From: Nitrosopumilus piranensis
GTDB taxonomy: Archaea; Thermoproteota; Nitrososphaeria; Nitrososphaerales; Nitrosopumilaceae
Direction: 5' to 3'
Assembly: GCF_000875775.1 (NCBI RefSeq)
Contig: NZ_CP010868.1
Coordinates: 1,054,001 to 1,118,000, forward strand
DNA length: 64,000 bases
A program made the translations under genes and the position numbers. This document shows, piece by piece, positions 37,779 to 41,173 of the stretch. Below the pieces are notes generated by a model that was not told the origin of the DNA, ran no database searches, and saw only the letters and a list, made by a program, of their open reading frames with translations. Positions within the stretch are counted from its first letter, which is position 1; each line of letters starts with the position of its first letter.

Positions 37779-37905
37779 TACGTTTGATTATGTTGGATTA
37801 AAAACTTGGATTAAACATAATGTATTTGGGATTAGAAAAATACTATTATGAAAATCTAGACGGATGGACACACTTTAATTCCTCAACCAGCAACATTTTT
37901 TGAGT

Positions 37906-37979
37906 GCCGGGGTAGCTCAGCCTGGGAGAGCACTCGGCTGAAGACCGGGCTGTCGCGCGTTCAAATCCCGCCCCCGGCA
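37906..37979 (+). tRNA. tRNA-Phe (GAA)
   Basis: Complete cloverleaf of 74 nt without CCA. Acceptor GCCGGGG/CCCCGGC with discriminator A, D-arm GCTC/GAGC, anticodon arm CTCGG-CTGAAGA-CCGGG with anticodon GAA, and T-loop TTCAAAT. The T stem GCGCG/CCCGC contains one C-C mismatch (52-62). A TTTAATT box at 37874-37880 stands ~29 nt upstream. No intron. Confidence 0.97.
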
Positions 37980-38065
37980 TTGTAATATCACATTAGTGCC
38001 CTTACATGAAAAATAATGGATTATTCTAAATTTTCGTAATCTTGTATAGGGGTATGAAATCCAAA

Positions 38066-39217
38066 TTATCGCGTCTGTTGAACGTGTGGTTGGCCAAAAG
38101 AATCTCTGAAATCATGATAGCGCAGACTAATGCTTCCCCCTCCAGAAGAAATTAATTCAGTACCTGATTTATTGCAGATTTTAGTTGGTACTTTGAAGGC
38201 GCCCTCAAATATTCCAGAACTTGGACTTGTTTCAACAAGCGTAAACCCTGTAGATGCCAATCCTCCATGTTCTATGCCATCAACGGTACATCTTTGATAC
38301 CTCACATCTTTGATTCTAACTTCTAATAAGATTCCACCACTAGCGGACCCAACGGTATCAACAAATGGAGAATTAGGATTATTTACGACCAGGTAAATAT
38401 CTTGCAGGTTACTGTTCAAGTTCAAGTCAGGATCAATCAGAGTAATTGTGACAGGTTGGCCAAAACGATAATTTTTAGGAGTAATAAAAAGAGTAGCTGG
38501 ATTTTTTGGGCTGTCTTCATCAAGTAAATATTGAAGTGACTTTAAAAATTCAGAATTTGATAAACGGCCATCACTCCACCATTCAGAGTTTTTTCTAATC
38601 TCTGCAAGATCTTTTCGCATGTCTTTACCTTTCATGGATACGTCTTTTGGAAAATCAATTGTCTTTTGCTTTATCAGATATTTGATGCCTTCAATGAACT
38701 CAAAATCAGATATTTGGTTCAATGACCACCATTTCGCAGTACTACGAACCCATCCTGGAATAAGTTCTTGTGATTCAGAATTTGTTGTAAAAATATCAGT
38801 ATTGACGCCAATATTTTGATTTGGGTTAGGTTTCTCATACGAATTAATTACAAAGCTAATCTCTGCGATTTCAGAATACCGTCCGAAATTAGATTTAATA
38901 GTATATACGCCAGTTTTTTTGAAATCAGCCGTATCAATAAATATTGAAAAATTTTTCTCTGGACTGACATCCGTTTTCAGCAGCGATACTATCTTTCCAG
39001 TAGGAGCATAAAGGATTATTTGGACGGATTCATTTTCATGGTATTTCTCAACCGCGCCCGTAATGTTTATCACCTCACCAATCACGTAAGATTCTTTGTC
39101 GGATTCAACAAGCAGGTATTCATATTCTGATTCTAGTTGATAGTTTCCATATGCACTAGCTTCGATAATTACTCCGAATGCAAGTAAAACAACAACTAAT
39201 AGAACAAGCACCTTCAC
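38066..39217 (-). CDS. Exported surface protein with two thaumarchaeal WW motifs
   Basis: A signal peptide (1-22) leads into an Ig-like beta domain (~30-130: 'YVIGEVINITGAVEKYHENE'), then two helical motifs: 'IPGWVRSTAKWWSLNQISD' with 'FEFIEGIKYLIKQ', and 'LAEIRKNSEWWSDGRLSNSE' with 'FLKSLQYLLDE'. A C-terminal beta domain (~245-383, 'ITLIDPDLNLNSNLQDIYLV') resembles repeats in thaumarchaeal S-layer-like proteins. Four Cys are present (RCTVDG, ICNKSG and others). Probably cell-surface or S-layer associated. No membrane anchor at the C-terminus is visible. Confidence 0.8.
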   Translation of the reverse strand: MKVLVLLVVVLLAFGVIIEASAYGNYQLESEYEYLLVESDKESYVIGEVINITGAVEKYHENESVQIILYAPTGKIVSLLKTDVSPEKNFSIFIDTADFKKTGVYTIKSNFGRYSEIAEISFVINSYEKPNPNQNIGVNTDIFTTNSESQELIPGWVRSTAKWWSLNQISDFEFIEGIKYLIKQKTIDFPKDVSMKGKDMRKDLAEIRKNSEWWSDGRLSNSEFLKSLQYLLDEDSPKNPATLFITPKNYRFGQPVTITLIDPDLNLNSNLQDIYLVVNNPNSPFVDTVGSASGGILLEVRIKDVRYQRCTVDGIEHGGLASTGFTLVETSPSSGIFEGAFKVPTKICNKSGTELISSGGGSISLRYHDFRDSFGQPHVQQTR

Positions 39218-39354
39218 ACTATCATATGGTTTTCATTTTAGATAAACTTGAGAACTTTCATAGTCTAACTACAGATTACAAATTATCAAAGTGTTAAAAG
39301 TCTGAAACAGACAATAAAATTATGAATACAGCACCAGTATGACACCATAGACAG

Positions 39355-39471
39355 ATGTGTTCAGATTGCAAACAAGTAAAATGTATGAGTGGTTGTGATT
39401 GTCAGACATGTAACTCAGAACATGGTTTCCAATCAGATGAATCCTGGTTTCCTGCTGTAATTATTTTTTGA
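39355..39471 (+). CDS. Cys-rich micro-protein, 38 aa
   Basis: Frame MCSDCKQVKCMSGCDCQTCN with C-x2-C-x4-C-x3-C-x-C-x2-C-N. The first four spacings and the terminal C-N equal those in the 35-residue protein at 12298, which supports a shared small family. Its 3' half runs antisense through the metallophosphoesterase remnant, so the C-terminal sequence may be young. Confidence 0.5.
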   Translation: MCSDCKQVKCMSGCDCQTCNSEHGFQSDESWFPAVIIF

Positions 39472-39654
39472 GCCATTTAGCAATGTTTGTTGCATCTTGT
39501 ACTTTATCTCCAAAATCATCAAAATAGTCTCCCAAGAATACAATTTTGTGAGGATTTTCTTGAGATAATTTTTTGCTGTATTGTAATCATTATGAATATC
39601 GGGAATAATCAATGTTTTTTCTGATGTATCTTTGACCATGATTTTTATCGACAT
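39407..39654 (-). pseudogene. Decayed calcineurin-like metallophosphoesterase
   Basis: The start 'TLIIPDIHNDYNTAKN' has the D-x-H metal motif. One extra A in the run at ~39580 would join it to the other frame, which then reads QENPHKIVFLGDYFDDFGD (the GD motif) and DATNIAKWLKK. A TAA at 39461 interrupts the frame, but it continues LQQETRIHLIGNHVLSYM, where GNH(D) is the next conserved motif with the Asp changed to Val. So there is one frameshift, one stop, one lost ligand, and no C-terminal half. Confidence 0.75.
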
Positions 39655-39884
39655 GATAGTCTGAAACCATTGTTTCCGTTCAAATCCCTATCAAGGAATT
39701 TACTGTGGCGTTGGGATACTCTGTAGGGGCACTGAACACGTTTTGCAAAAAATTCAATTTCTCAAAAAAATTTTTTAATTTTTTTGAAATGTTAGAGTAC
39801 TCATGTGATTTCATAAATCCCGCCAGGCACTGTTTTAATATTAAAAAAAATATTAAGTATGGTGATCATGATTTTTTTAAAATA
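39655..39884. other. AT-rich spacer with tRNA T-arm copy and two hairpins
   Basis: CGTTCAAATCCC at 39677-39688 repeats positions 37958-37969 of tRNA-Phe. CAAAAAAATT (39763-39772) / AATTTTTTTG (39777-39786) and TTAATATT (39835-39842) / AATATTAA (39849-39856) form hairpins. A 64-codon plus frame here has poor composition and is not called. The stretch may be remains of an integrated element. Confidence 0.4.
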
Positions 39885-40217
39885 TCATACATCTACTAAA
39901 TTATAAAAACTCTTTCCAGAAGCGGATTTTTCAGAGACGCATTTAACTGGTCCCAAAGCATTTCCATTATTTACATCTGAACGTAATTTCTCATTACTGA
40001 ATTTTTTAACAATTGCTACTCTTGTTGTATGGAATTTATTTACAAAATTACCTTCAACTTCAAAAGTTTCTTTAGTGGTAATCTTTACTCCTTTTGTGAT
40101 TATGTCTCCTTGAGTATAATCTGAATCTTCAATGAATGTAATGGTAAACGCTTTATCGCCAATTTTTGCCAAGCTGACTGAATCGCCAATAGTTGCATAA
40201 TCTGCTAACGTTGCTAT
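39885..40217 (-). CDS. Hypothetical protein with ATA start and perfect Shine-Dalgarno, 110 aa
   Basis: Reading from ATA at 40217 gives (M)ATLADYATIGDSVSLAKIGD, then 'KITTKETFEVEGNFVNKFHT' and 'GNALGPVKCVSEKSASGKSF'. The first in-frame TTG (40170-40172) would drop 15 conserved-looking residues. A TGA lies just two codons before the ATA, so the true start must be in this short window. The fold looks like a small beta barrel (OB-like); a role in nucleic acid binding is only a guess. Confidence 0.75.
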   Translation of the reverse strand: MATLADYATIGDSVSLAKIGDKAFTITFIEDSDYTQGDIITKGVKITTKETFEVEGNFVNKFHTTRVAIVKKFSNEKLRSDVNNGNALGPVKCVSEKSASGKSFYNLVDV

Positions 40218-40223
40218 CTTCTT

Positions 40224-40231
40224 TCACCTCC
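40224..40231 (-). promoter_or_regulatory. Perfect Shine-Dalgarno deciding the ATA start
   Basis: GGAGGTGA on the minus strand is an eight-base complement to the archaeal 16S rRNA 3' end and lies 6 nt (AAGAAG) before the ATA at 40217. Such a strong site is unusual in this mostly leaderless window. Confidence 0.7.
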
Positions 40232-40414
40232 CAAAATTAATGATTAAGATACTTTTGATAAATTGATCTTAAAGTAAATTTTTGACTCAGATGGCTACTT
40301 TCATCTACCATTAACAAAAAGTTTGGTTGATCGGAAAATATTTGTACAAAATCCTCAAAAAACCAATTCTACAAAATATTTAAAAATAAGGCGACCTCTA
40401 GATTTTCGACATTC

Positions 40415-40687
40415 ATGGCTGAAAAAAAATCTGTAAAGAAGACTAAATCAAAAAACCCTAAGGCAAAAACTACAAAATCTAAGGCTAAAGCAACCAAATC
40501 AAAGGCTAAGGCAAAAACTACAAAATCTAAGGCTAAAGCAACCAAATCAAAAACCAAAAAAGATGAACCTGTTGGAGATATGGGGATAGTTATAGTAGAT
40601 GATGATATTGAAATTGATCAGGAAAAAGTCAATGAAGAAAGACGTGCATATTTAGAAGAAGCAAGGTCTCAGGAAGCATTTGACTAG
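40415..40687 (+). CDS. Lysine-rich repeat protein with acidic tail, 90 aa
   Basis: Residues 1-50 are made of Lys/Ala/Thr/Ser repeats (KAKTTKSKAKATKSK twice), like histone H1 or bacterial HU tails. Residues 51-90 are acidic ('VDDDIEIDQEKVNEERRAYL'). The basic part should bind DNA or RNA. The repeat is also exact at DNA level. Start ATG follows a TATA-like ATATTTAAAAATAAG. Charge-segregated architecture suggests a chromatin- or polymerase-associated role, inferred. Confidence 0.75.
   Translation: MAEKKSVKKTKSKNPKAKTTKSKAKATKSKAKAKTTKSKAKATKSKTKKDEPVGDMGIVIVDDDIEIDQEKVNEERRAYLEEARSQEAFD
40460..40551 (+). repeat. Tandem 48-nt repeat within the Lys-rich gene
   Basis: A 44-nt block beginning AAGGCAAAAACTACAAAATC occurs exactly at 40460-40503 and 40508-40551, a 48-nt period equal to 16 codons. 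Identity at synonymous sites shows a recent duplication or ongoing slippage. Confidence 0.85.
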
Positions 40688-40721: not shown

Positions 40722-40961
40722 ATGCGTGCATTATGTCTAATTACTGTAAAACCAGGAAAAGTAGACTCTGTTGTCCAAATTCTAAAAAAGAAAAGAAAGG
40801 TGGTCAAACAGATTATGGTAGTAACAGGTCGTGCAGACATTAGTGTTCTTTTACAAGGAGGAATCGAAGACATCAATAACATGGTAATAGATTTCAAGAA
40901 AATCAAAGATATTGTAACTACTGAAACTCTAATTGAGGTGGAGGTAAATCTGGGATGGTAA
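40722..40961 (+). CDS. Stand-alone Lrp/AsnC ligand-binding (RAM) domain protein, 79 aa
   Basis: 'MRALCLITVKPGKVDSVVQI' and 'VVTGRADISVLLQGGIEDIN' followed by 'TETLIEVEVNLGW' match the beta-alpha-beta-beta-alpha-beta RAM domain of Lrp regulators without the DNA-binding part. Such proteins bind amino acids and may modulate full Lrp proteins. It overlaps the next, similar gene by 7 nt. Confidence 0.88.
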   Translation: MRALCLITVKPGKVDSVVQILKKKRKVVKQIMVVTGRADISVLLQGGIEDINNMVIDFKKIKDIVTTETLIEVEVNLGW

Positions 40962-41173
40962 GGGCCATAATTTTAGTAAAATCTCCCAAAAAATTAATTG
41001 CGGCAAGATTACGTAAGATCAATTCAGTGTCTGATTCATTTCCTACTAGTGGTCAATTTGATGCAGTCGCTATTATTGATGTTAACCAATTAATACAAAT
41101 TAAAGAAGTTGCCAACCAAATCCAAAAAATCAACGGAGTTGAACGAACTGAAACCATGGTCGAAGTTCAATGA
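40955..41173 (+). CDS. Second stand-alone RAM domain protein, 72 aa
   Basis: A divergent tandem copy: 'MVRAIILVKSPKKLIAARLR', 'GQFDAVAIIDVNQLIQIKEV', 'NGVERTETMVEVQ'. The overlapping arrangement suggests the two small RAM proteins form a hetero-oligomer. Both lack a helix-turn-helix. Confidence 0.86.
   Translation: MVRAIILVKSPKKLIAARLRKINSVSDSFPTSGQFDAVAIIDVNQLIQIKEVANQIQKINGVERTETMVEVQ

Follow-up and report, generated by a model that had tools for sequence, protein, structure and literature searches.

A small gene of Nitrosopumilus piranensis, on the minus strand of the 64,000-nucleotide stretch of DNA analysed here (the window; contig NZ_CP010868.1, positions 1,054,001 to 1,118,000), is very probably translated from an AUA codon, which would be retained as a translational attenuator, its weakness compensated by a strong Shine-Dalgarno (SD) sequence and its low, tunable output favoured by selection. 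Comparison of orthologous genes shows where translation would start, that the AUA is invariant and that a full-length SD is conserved together with it. We infer that initiation is reduced and sensitive to initiation factors, and the OB-fold product presumably has to be kept at low levels, or may control its own mRNA. AUA serves only exceptionally as a start codon, and here it has the look of an intrinsic brake or regulatory point in protein synthesis, not of a mistake.

Start site and reading frame

The features of the gene and its upstream region, in window coordinates, are the following.

39885–40217, minus strand: coding sequence of 110 codons for a small OB-fold-like protein of no named family (assigned from homologues, AlphaFold2 and Foldseek)
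40197–40214, minus strand: codons 2–7 (GCA ACG TTA GCA GAT TAT), with unusually constrained silent positions
40215–40217, minus strand: ATA (AUA) start codon, 0 changes in 35/35 distinct orthologous coding sequences; ATG in genome G089
40224–40226, minus strand: in-frame TGA two codons 5' of the ATA, overlapping the SD (from the sequence and the stop-to-stop frame)
40224–40231, minus strand: extended SD GGAGGTGA, 6 nt 5' of the ATA, complementary to the 16S 3' end
40257–40262, minus strand: TTTATC, probable TATA-like promoter element at −45 from the ATA; conserved, with a presumed function
40274–40286, minus strand: GTCAAAAATTTAC, dyad-like element (GTCAAnnnTTRAC in relatives) and possible operator; conserved, with a presumed function

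The minus-strand context around the start is ttaattttGGGAGGTGAaagaagATAGCAACGTTAGCAGATTATGCA; ATTTTGGGAGGTGAAAGAAG lies directly 5' of ATA-GCA-ACG-TTA-GCA-GAT-TAT, and the spacer between SD and ATA is the six nucleotides AAGAAG. The stop-to-stop frame (40223–39885, minus strand) opens with K K I A T L, and its first conventional in-frame start is a TTG at 40172, codon 16. An earlier note on this DNA had proposed that the SD marks the ATA as the start, and the layout that it described was confirmed: GGAGGTGA at 40231–40224 ends 6 nt before the ATA at 40217–40215, the TGA two codons upstream lies at 40226–40224, the next TTG is indeed codon 16 of the frame, and the predicted peptide ATLADYATIGD matches the frame translation.

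Conservation of the ATA codon among relatives

Homologues (E <= 1e-8) were found in 40 of 250 genomes of the family, and in 37 of the 40 an ATA occupies exactly the homologous codon behind an SD. Thirty-six of these genomes are members of the genus, 35 of which fit GGAGGTGN{4,9}ATAGC; in G094 the ATA is preceded by GGGGGTGA. In G133, which belongs to another genus (63% identity, different neighbours), the ATA follows GAGGTGA. Nearly all orthologues carry the SD as GGAGGTGA or GGAGGTGG with a spacer of approximately 5–6 nt. The remaining homologues include one cut off by a contig end (G028) and the divergent G115 (44–48% identity), which has no ATA and likely starts at a TTG one codon later without an SD, a point that counts against the attenuator explanation. 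In G089 (locus L101, 61–63% identity), an ATG stands at exactly the homologous codon behind GGAGGTGA, the same SD, which fixes the start position. It also shows that ATG has been tolerated at this codon at least once, again a point against attenuation. The earlier note had suggested a search for orthologues with ATG behind the same SD; G089 is the one found, and nearly all others keep the ATA. G089 joins the ATA-bearing G133 on long branches in the tree. Among more distant relatives in the genus, L019 and L023–L029 (30–36% identity by tblastn) start with ATG.

The 35 distinct coding sequences span a tree of 5.0 substitutions per site, on which third positions changed 6.9 times on average and only 5 of 109 remained unchanged, whereas the ATA codon underwent 0 changes at any position. 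The start codons of the four syntenic neighbours vary between species (ATG/GTG; ATG/TTG/CTG; ATG/GTG; GTG/ATG). Set against these changing third positions and neighbouring starts, the invariance of the ATA indicates selection or strong constraint, not short divergence. In G081, G090 and G133 the gene sits at other loci behind other promoters, and the ATA is still present.

Two orthologues bear directly on the need for a non-canonical start. In L083 (82% identity) a TGA closes the frame three codons 5' of the ATA, and in L037 (90% identity) the frame is closed sixteen codons 5' of it; neither contains a single ATG, GTG, TTG or CTG over the full length of the frame, indicating that a non-canonical start is unavoidable in these species. 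The SD and the ATG of G089 point to the ATA as that start. In several other orthologues the first conventional start comes only at codon 26–54, and a protein begun there would lack much of the predicted fold.

Strength and rarity of the Shine-Dalgarno sequence

The exact GGAGGTGA occurs only 30 times on both strands of the 1.71-Mb genome (approximately 1e-5 per position). One copy is the 16S 3' end itself, and across the whole genome copies precede other plausible gene starts at three ATG codons and one TTG. Among 49 examined genomic sites at which GGAGGT or GAGGTG is followed by ATA, this gene is the unique open reading frame of at least 100 codons without a nearby conventional start, lacking any upstream of the ATA and any over the 14 codons that follow it. 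General use of ATA as a start codon in N. piranensis was rejected, as none of the other examined sites of this SD-preceded kind resembles a gene start; L142 (68 aa), considered as a second ATA-start candidate, is of low complexity and without support.

The predicted duplex of the SD with the 16S tail, at −15.8 kcal/mol, is the strongest found in the window, where the best SD near any start of the 56 large open reading frames has a median of −5.2 kcal/mol and only one reaches −14. A functional SD has been predicted in only 11% of Nitrososphaeria mRNAs, with the consensus AGGAGGUGA (PMC10783764), and a full-length SD is therefore unusual in this class. Such an SD is as expected if it compensates for a weak AUA codon, and its strength is consistent with this role.

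Predicted product

Searches of Pfam, PHROGs and NCBIfam returned no family for the product, and it fell into no known sequence family of single-stranded DNA-binding proteins (SSBs). An AlphaFold2 model built from 22 aligned sequences (pLDDT 88.7) is a beta-rich, OB-like barrel with a helix between strands. The best viral model found with Foldseek was a podovirus ssDNA-binding protein (E 7e-4, TM 0.61, 12% identity), with several further viral SSBs ranking below it; matches in the PDB were weak SSBs, none at E <= 0.001. The product is thus predicted to be a small OB-fold protein resembling single-strand nucleic-acid-binding proteins. Its predicted fold is like that of viral ssDNA-binding OB-fold proteins of the podovirus and tectivirus types, from which it differs in the lack of a sequence family match and in the low identity, its binding being a prediction; no virus or phage relatives were found by sequence.

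Promoter region and locus

Upstream of the ATA, almost every syntenic orthologue has TTTATC at −42 to −48, and most have GTCAA (often GTCAAnnnTTRAC) at −66 to −72. With TTTATC as the TATA element, transcripts would begin approximately 17–20 nt before the ATA, and a leader of this length would leave no space for an upstream start. The copies in G081, G090 and G133 have the ATA without the TTTATC and GTCAA elements. The conserved elements at 40257–40286 (minus strand) are possibly a regulator site common to the divergent gene at 40415.

The locus is conserved. On its upstream side lie the divergent lysine-rich gene, a pair of short genes with an Lrp/AsnC ligand domain and a glyoxalase-like gene, and on its downstream side lies tRNA-Phe. 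One of the short Lrp/AsnC-ligand-domain genes (40955–41173, plus strand) starts with ATG, TTG or CTG depending on the species, behind GGAGGT. The homologues in G133, G090 and G081 (L153, L154 and L155, respectively) are non-syntenic; one has a ParB_N gene in its vicinity and another a DEAD_2/Helicase_C_2 gene. These positions indicate that the gene has relocated at times. The tRNA-Phe gene adjoins it in many relatives; here it is approximately 1.9 kb away (37905–39850), separated by a surface-protein-like open reading frame (38066–39217) and debris, along with two segments, at approximately 39677–39688 and 39815–39824, that match the tRNA-Phe T-arm over 12 and 10 bp, respectively. The segment 37905–39850 may represent the remnants of an insertion at tRNA-Phe.

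Alternative explanations

Translation might instead begin at the TTG at 40172, the upstream codons and the SD serving something else, given that no other conventional start precedes this TTG in N. piranensis or in 20 of the 35 orthologues. However, codon 16 is TTA, CTG, CTA or CTT in 12 of the 35, L083 and L037 offer no conventional start, and the TTG lies some 50 nt downstream of the SD. The earlier note held that orthologues lacking the first 15 residues would speak against the ATA start; residues 2–16 are instead conserved (A-T/K-L-A/T-D-Y...SLAK), and both tests of the SD-marked start agree with the ATA. We rejected the TTG, which is not conserved and is absent in some orthologues, as very unlikely. 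A start at the GTG within the SD itself (GGAGGTG), with the ATA as an internal isoleucine codon or one reached by frameshifting, is just as hard to sustain. A spacer shorter by one nucleotide puts the GTG in frame in L003 and L012/L014, but this GTG is out of frame in every species with the 14-nt spacing, including N. piranensis, in which a TGA also intervenes, and it would have no SD of its own. An internal isoleucine codon would, moreover, be expected to vary: in the same sequences internal isoleucine is encoded by ATT (58%), ATA (23%) and ATC (19%), so that ATT and ATC make up 77%, yet this ATA never changes. Given that the spacing differs by one nucleotide between clades, an upstream GTG start, in frame or out of frame, was rejected. 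Sequencing error or gene decay, for which the oddity of the codon is the sole point, has a negligible probability and is refuted by the cross-genome comparison, in which the identical codon recurs in 37 genomes, including single-contig genomes and a single-cell genome (L034), within a frame that is intact in nearly all members and a protein that is approximately 63–97% conserved.

A more serious alternative, although still an unlikely one, is that the ATA is fixed as part of a DNA or RNA binding site, an operator for the product itself or for another regulator, with low initiation as a side effect. Third-position changes over codons 1–7 sum to 9, against 25 in the next-lowest window of codons, and three of the four neighbouring genes show no such silent constraint over codons 2–7. 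The product also resembles single-strand nucleic-acid-binding proteins, a class with known translational self-control, of which the single-strand-binding protein gp32 of phage T4 is an example. On the other hand, G089 accepts an ATG, constraint close to a start codon may merely reflect ribosome access, and the start region gave no sign of a stable, conserved structure; a search for a leader RNA element or hairpin yielded neither an Rfam match within the gene nor a fold that was both stable and conserved. The constraint over codons 2–7 is also not unique, since the control gene K40415 likewise shows low silent change there (rank 2 of 67 windows). In a more specific proposal, which we regard as improbable to a similar degree, the OB-fold protein would bind its own SD, AUA and codons 2–7 and shut off its own translation, the AUA being a required part of the switch in two genera and across relocations. 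Slow, readily reversed initiation at the AUA would make such a shut-off by the product possible, and the silent-site constraint in codons 1–7 and the class of protein are in its favour. Autoregulation by the OB-fold product is plausible.

Discussion

In the attenuator model that we favour, the extended SD would position the 30S subunit with its P site over the AUA, to be read by initiator Met-tRNA despite a mismatch at the third position. This mismatch would hold initiation well below the AUG level and make it sensitive to start-codon fidelity, which in archaea would depend mainly on aIF1 and aIF2. The AUA would be kept because the resulting low, tunable output is selected for.

Bacteria are known to use conserved AUA or AUU starts, which IF3 rejects, as a means of control. 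To our knowledge archaea are without IF3, and their start choice is made by aIF1/aIF2, as in eukaryotes. Bacterial infC, which encodes IF3 and starts with AUU or AUA, likewise combines a conserved non-canonical AUN start with a strong SD and the expected limitation by start fidelity; in S. aureus, infC has an AUA and an extended SD, as here (PMC13009471). The present gene differs in that its product is not an initiation factor. Staphylococcal and Bacillus ccpN (AUA) and staphylococcal cvfC1 (AUU) are also alike, each being a small, putatively regulatory gene with a conserved start and an extended SD, although they encode other proteins and depend on bacterial initiation with IF3, in contrast to archaeal aIF1/aIF2. 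The present gene thus shares with the infC and ccpN types a homologous non-canonical start in many species and an extended SD at functional spacing. The AUA/AUU starts of infC, ccpN and cvfC1 with their extended SDs are in use in S. aureus, with ccpN and cvfC1 reporters yielding about 10–30% of the AUG level (PMC13009471); in Listeria, start strength follows the order ATG > ATA > ATT (PMC13068326), and archaeal aIF1 disfavours non-AUG complexes (PMC6237735). Activity of bacterial AUA starts at a fraction of AUG, taken with the bias of archaeal aIF1, favours translational attenuation through an SD-compensated AUA. The single SUI1/aIF1 gene found in N. piranensis lies elsewhere in the genome and begins with ATG, so that a direct infC-style fidelity-feedback loop is not evident; on this ground, and given the OB-fold-like product, infC-type self-feedback by aIF1 was rejected.

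A review of archaeal initiation names only AUG, GUG and UUG as starts (PMC7531240), and our search of the open-access literature found no archaeal gene previously described with a conserved AUA start. In ammonia-oxidising archaea, gene-calling rules confined to ATG, GTG and TTG would annotate this gene too short or overlook it. The autoregulatory proposal, if true, would make it the first archaeal counterpart of the bacterial genes controlled through AUA or AUU. A deeply conserved archaeal AUA start would provide a natural substrate for asking whether a eukaryote-like initiation machinery uses poor start codons for regulation.
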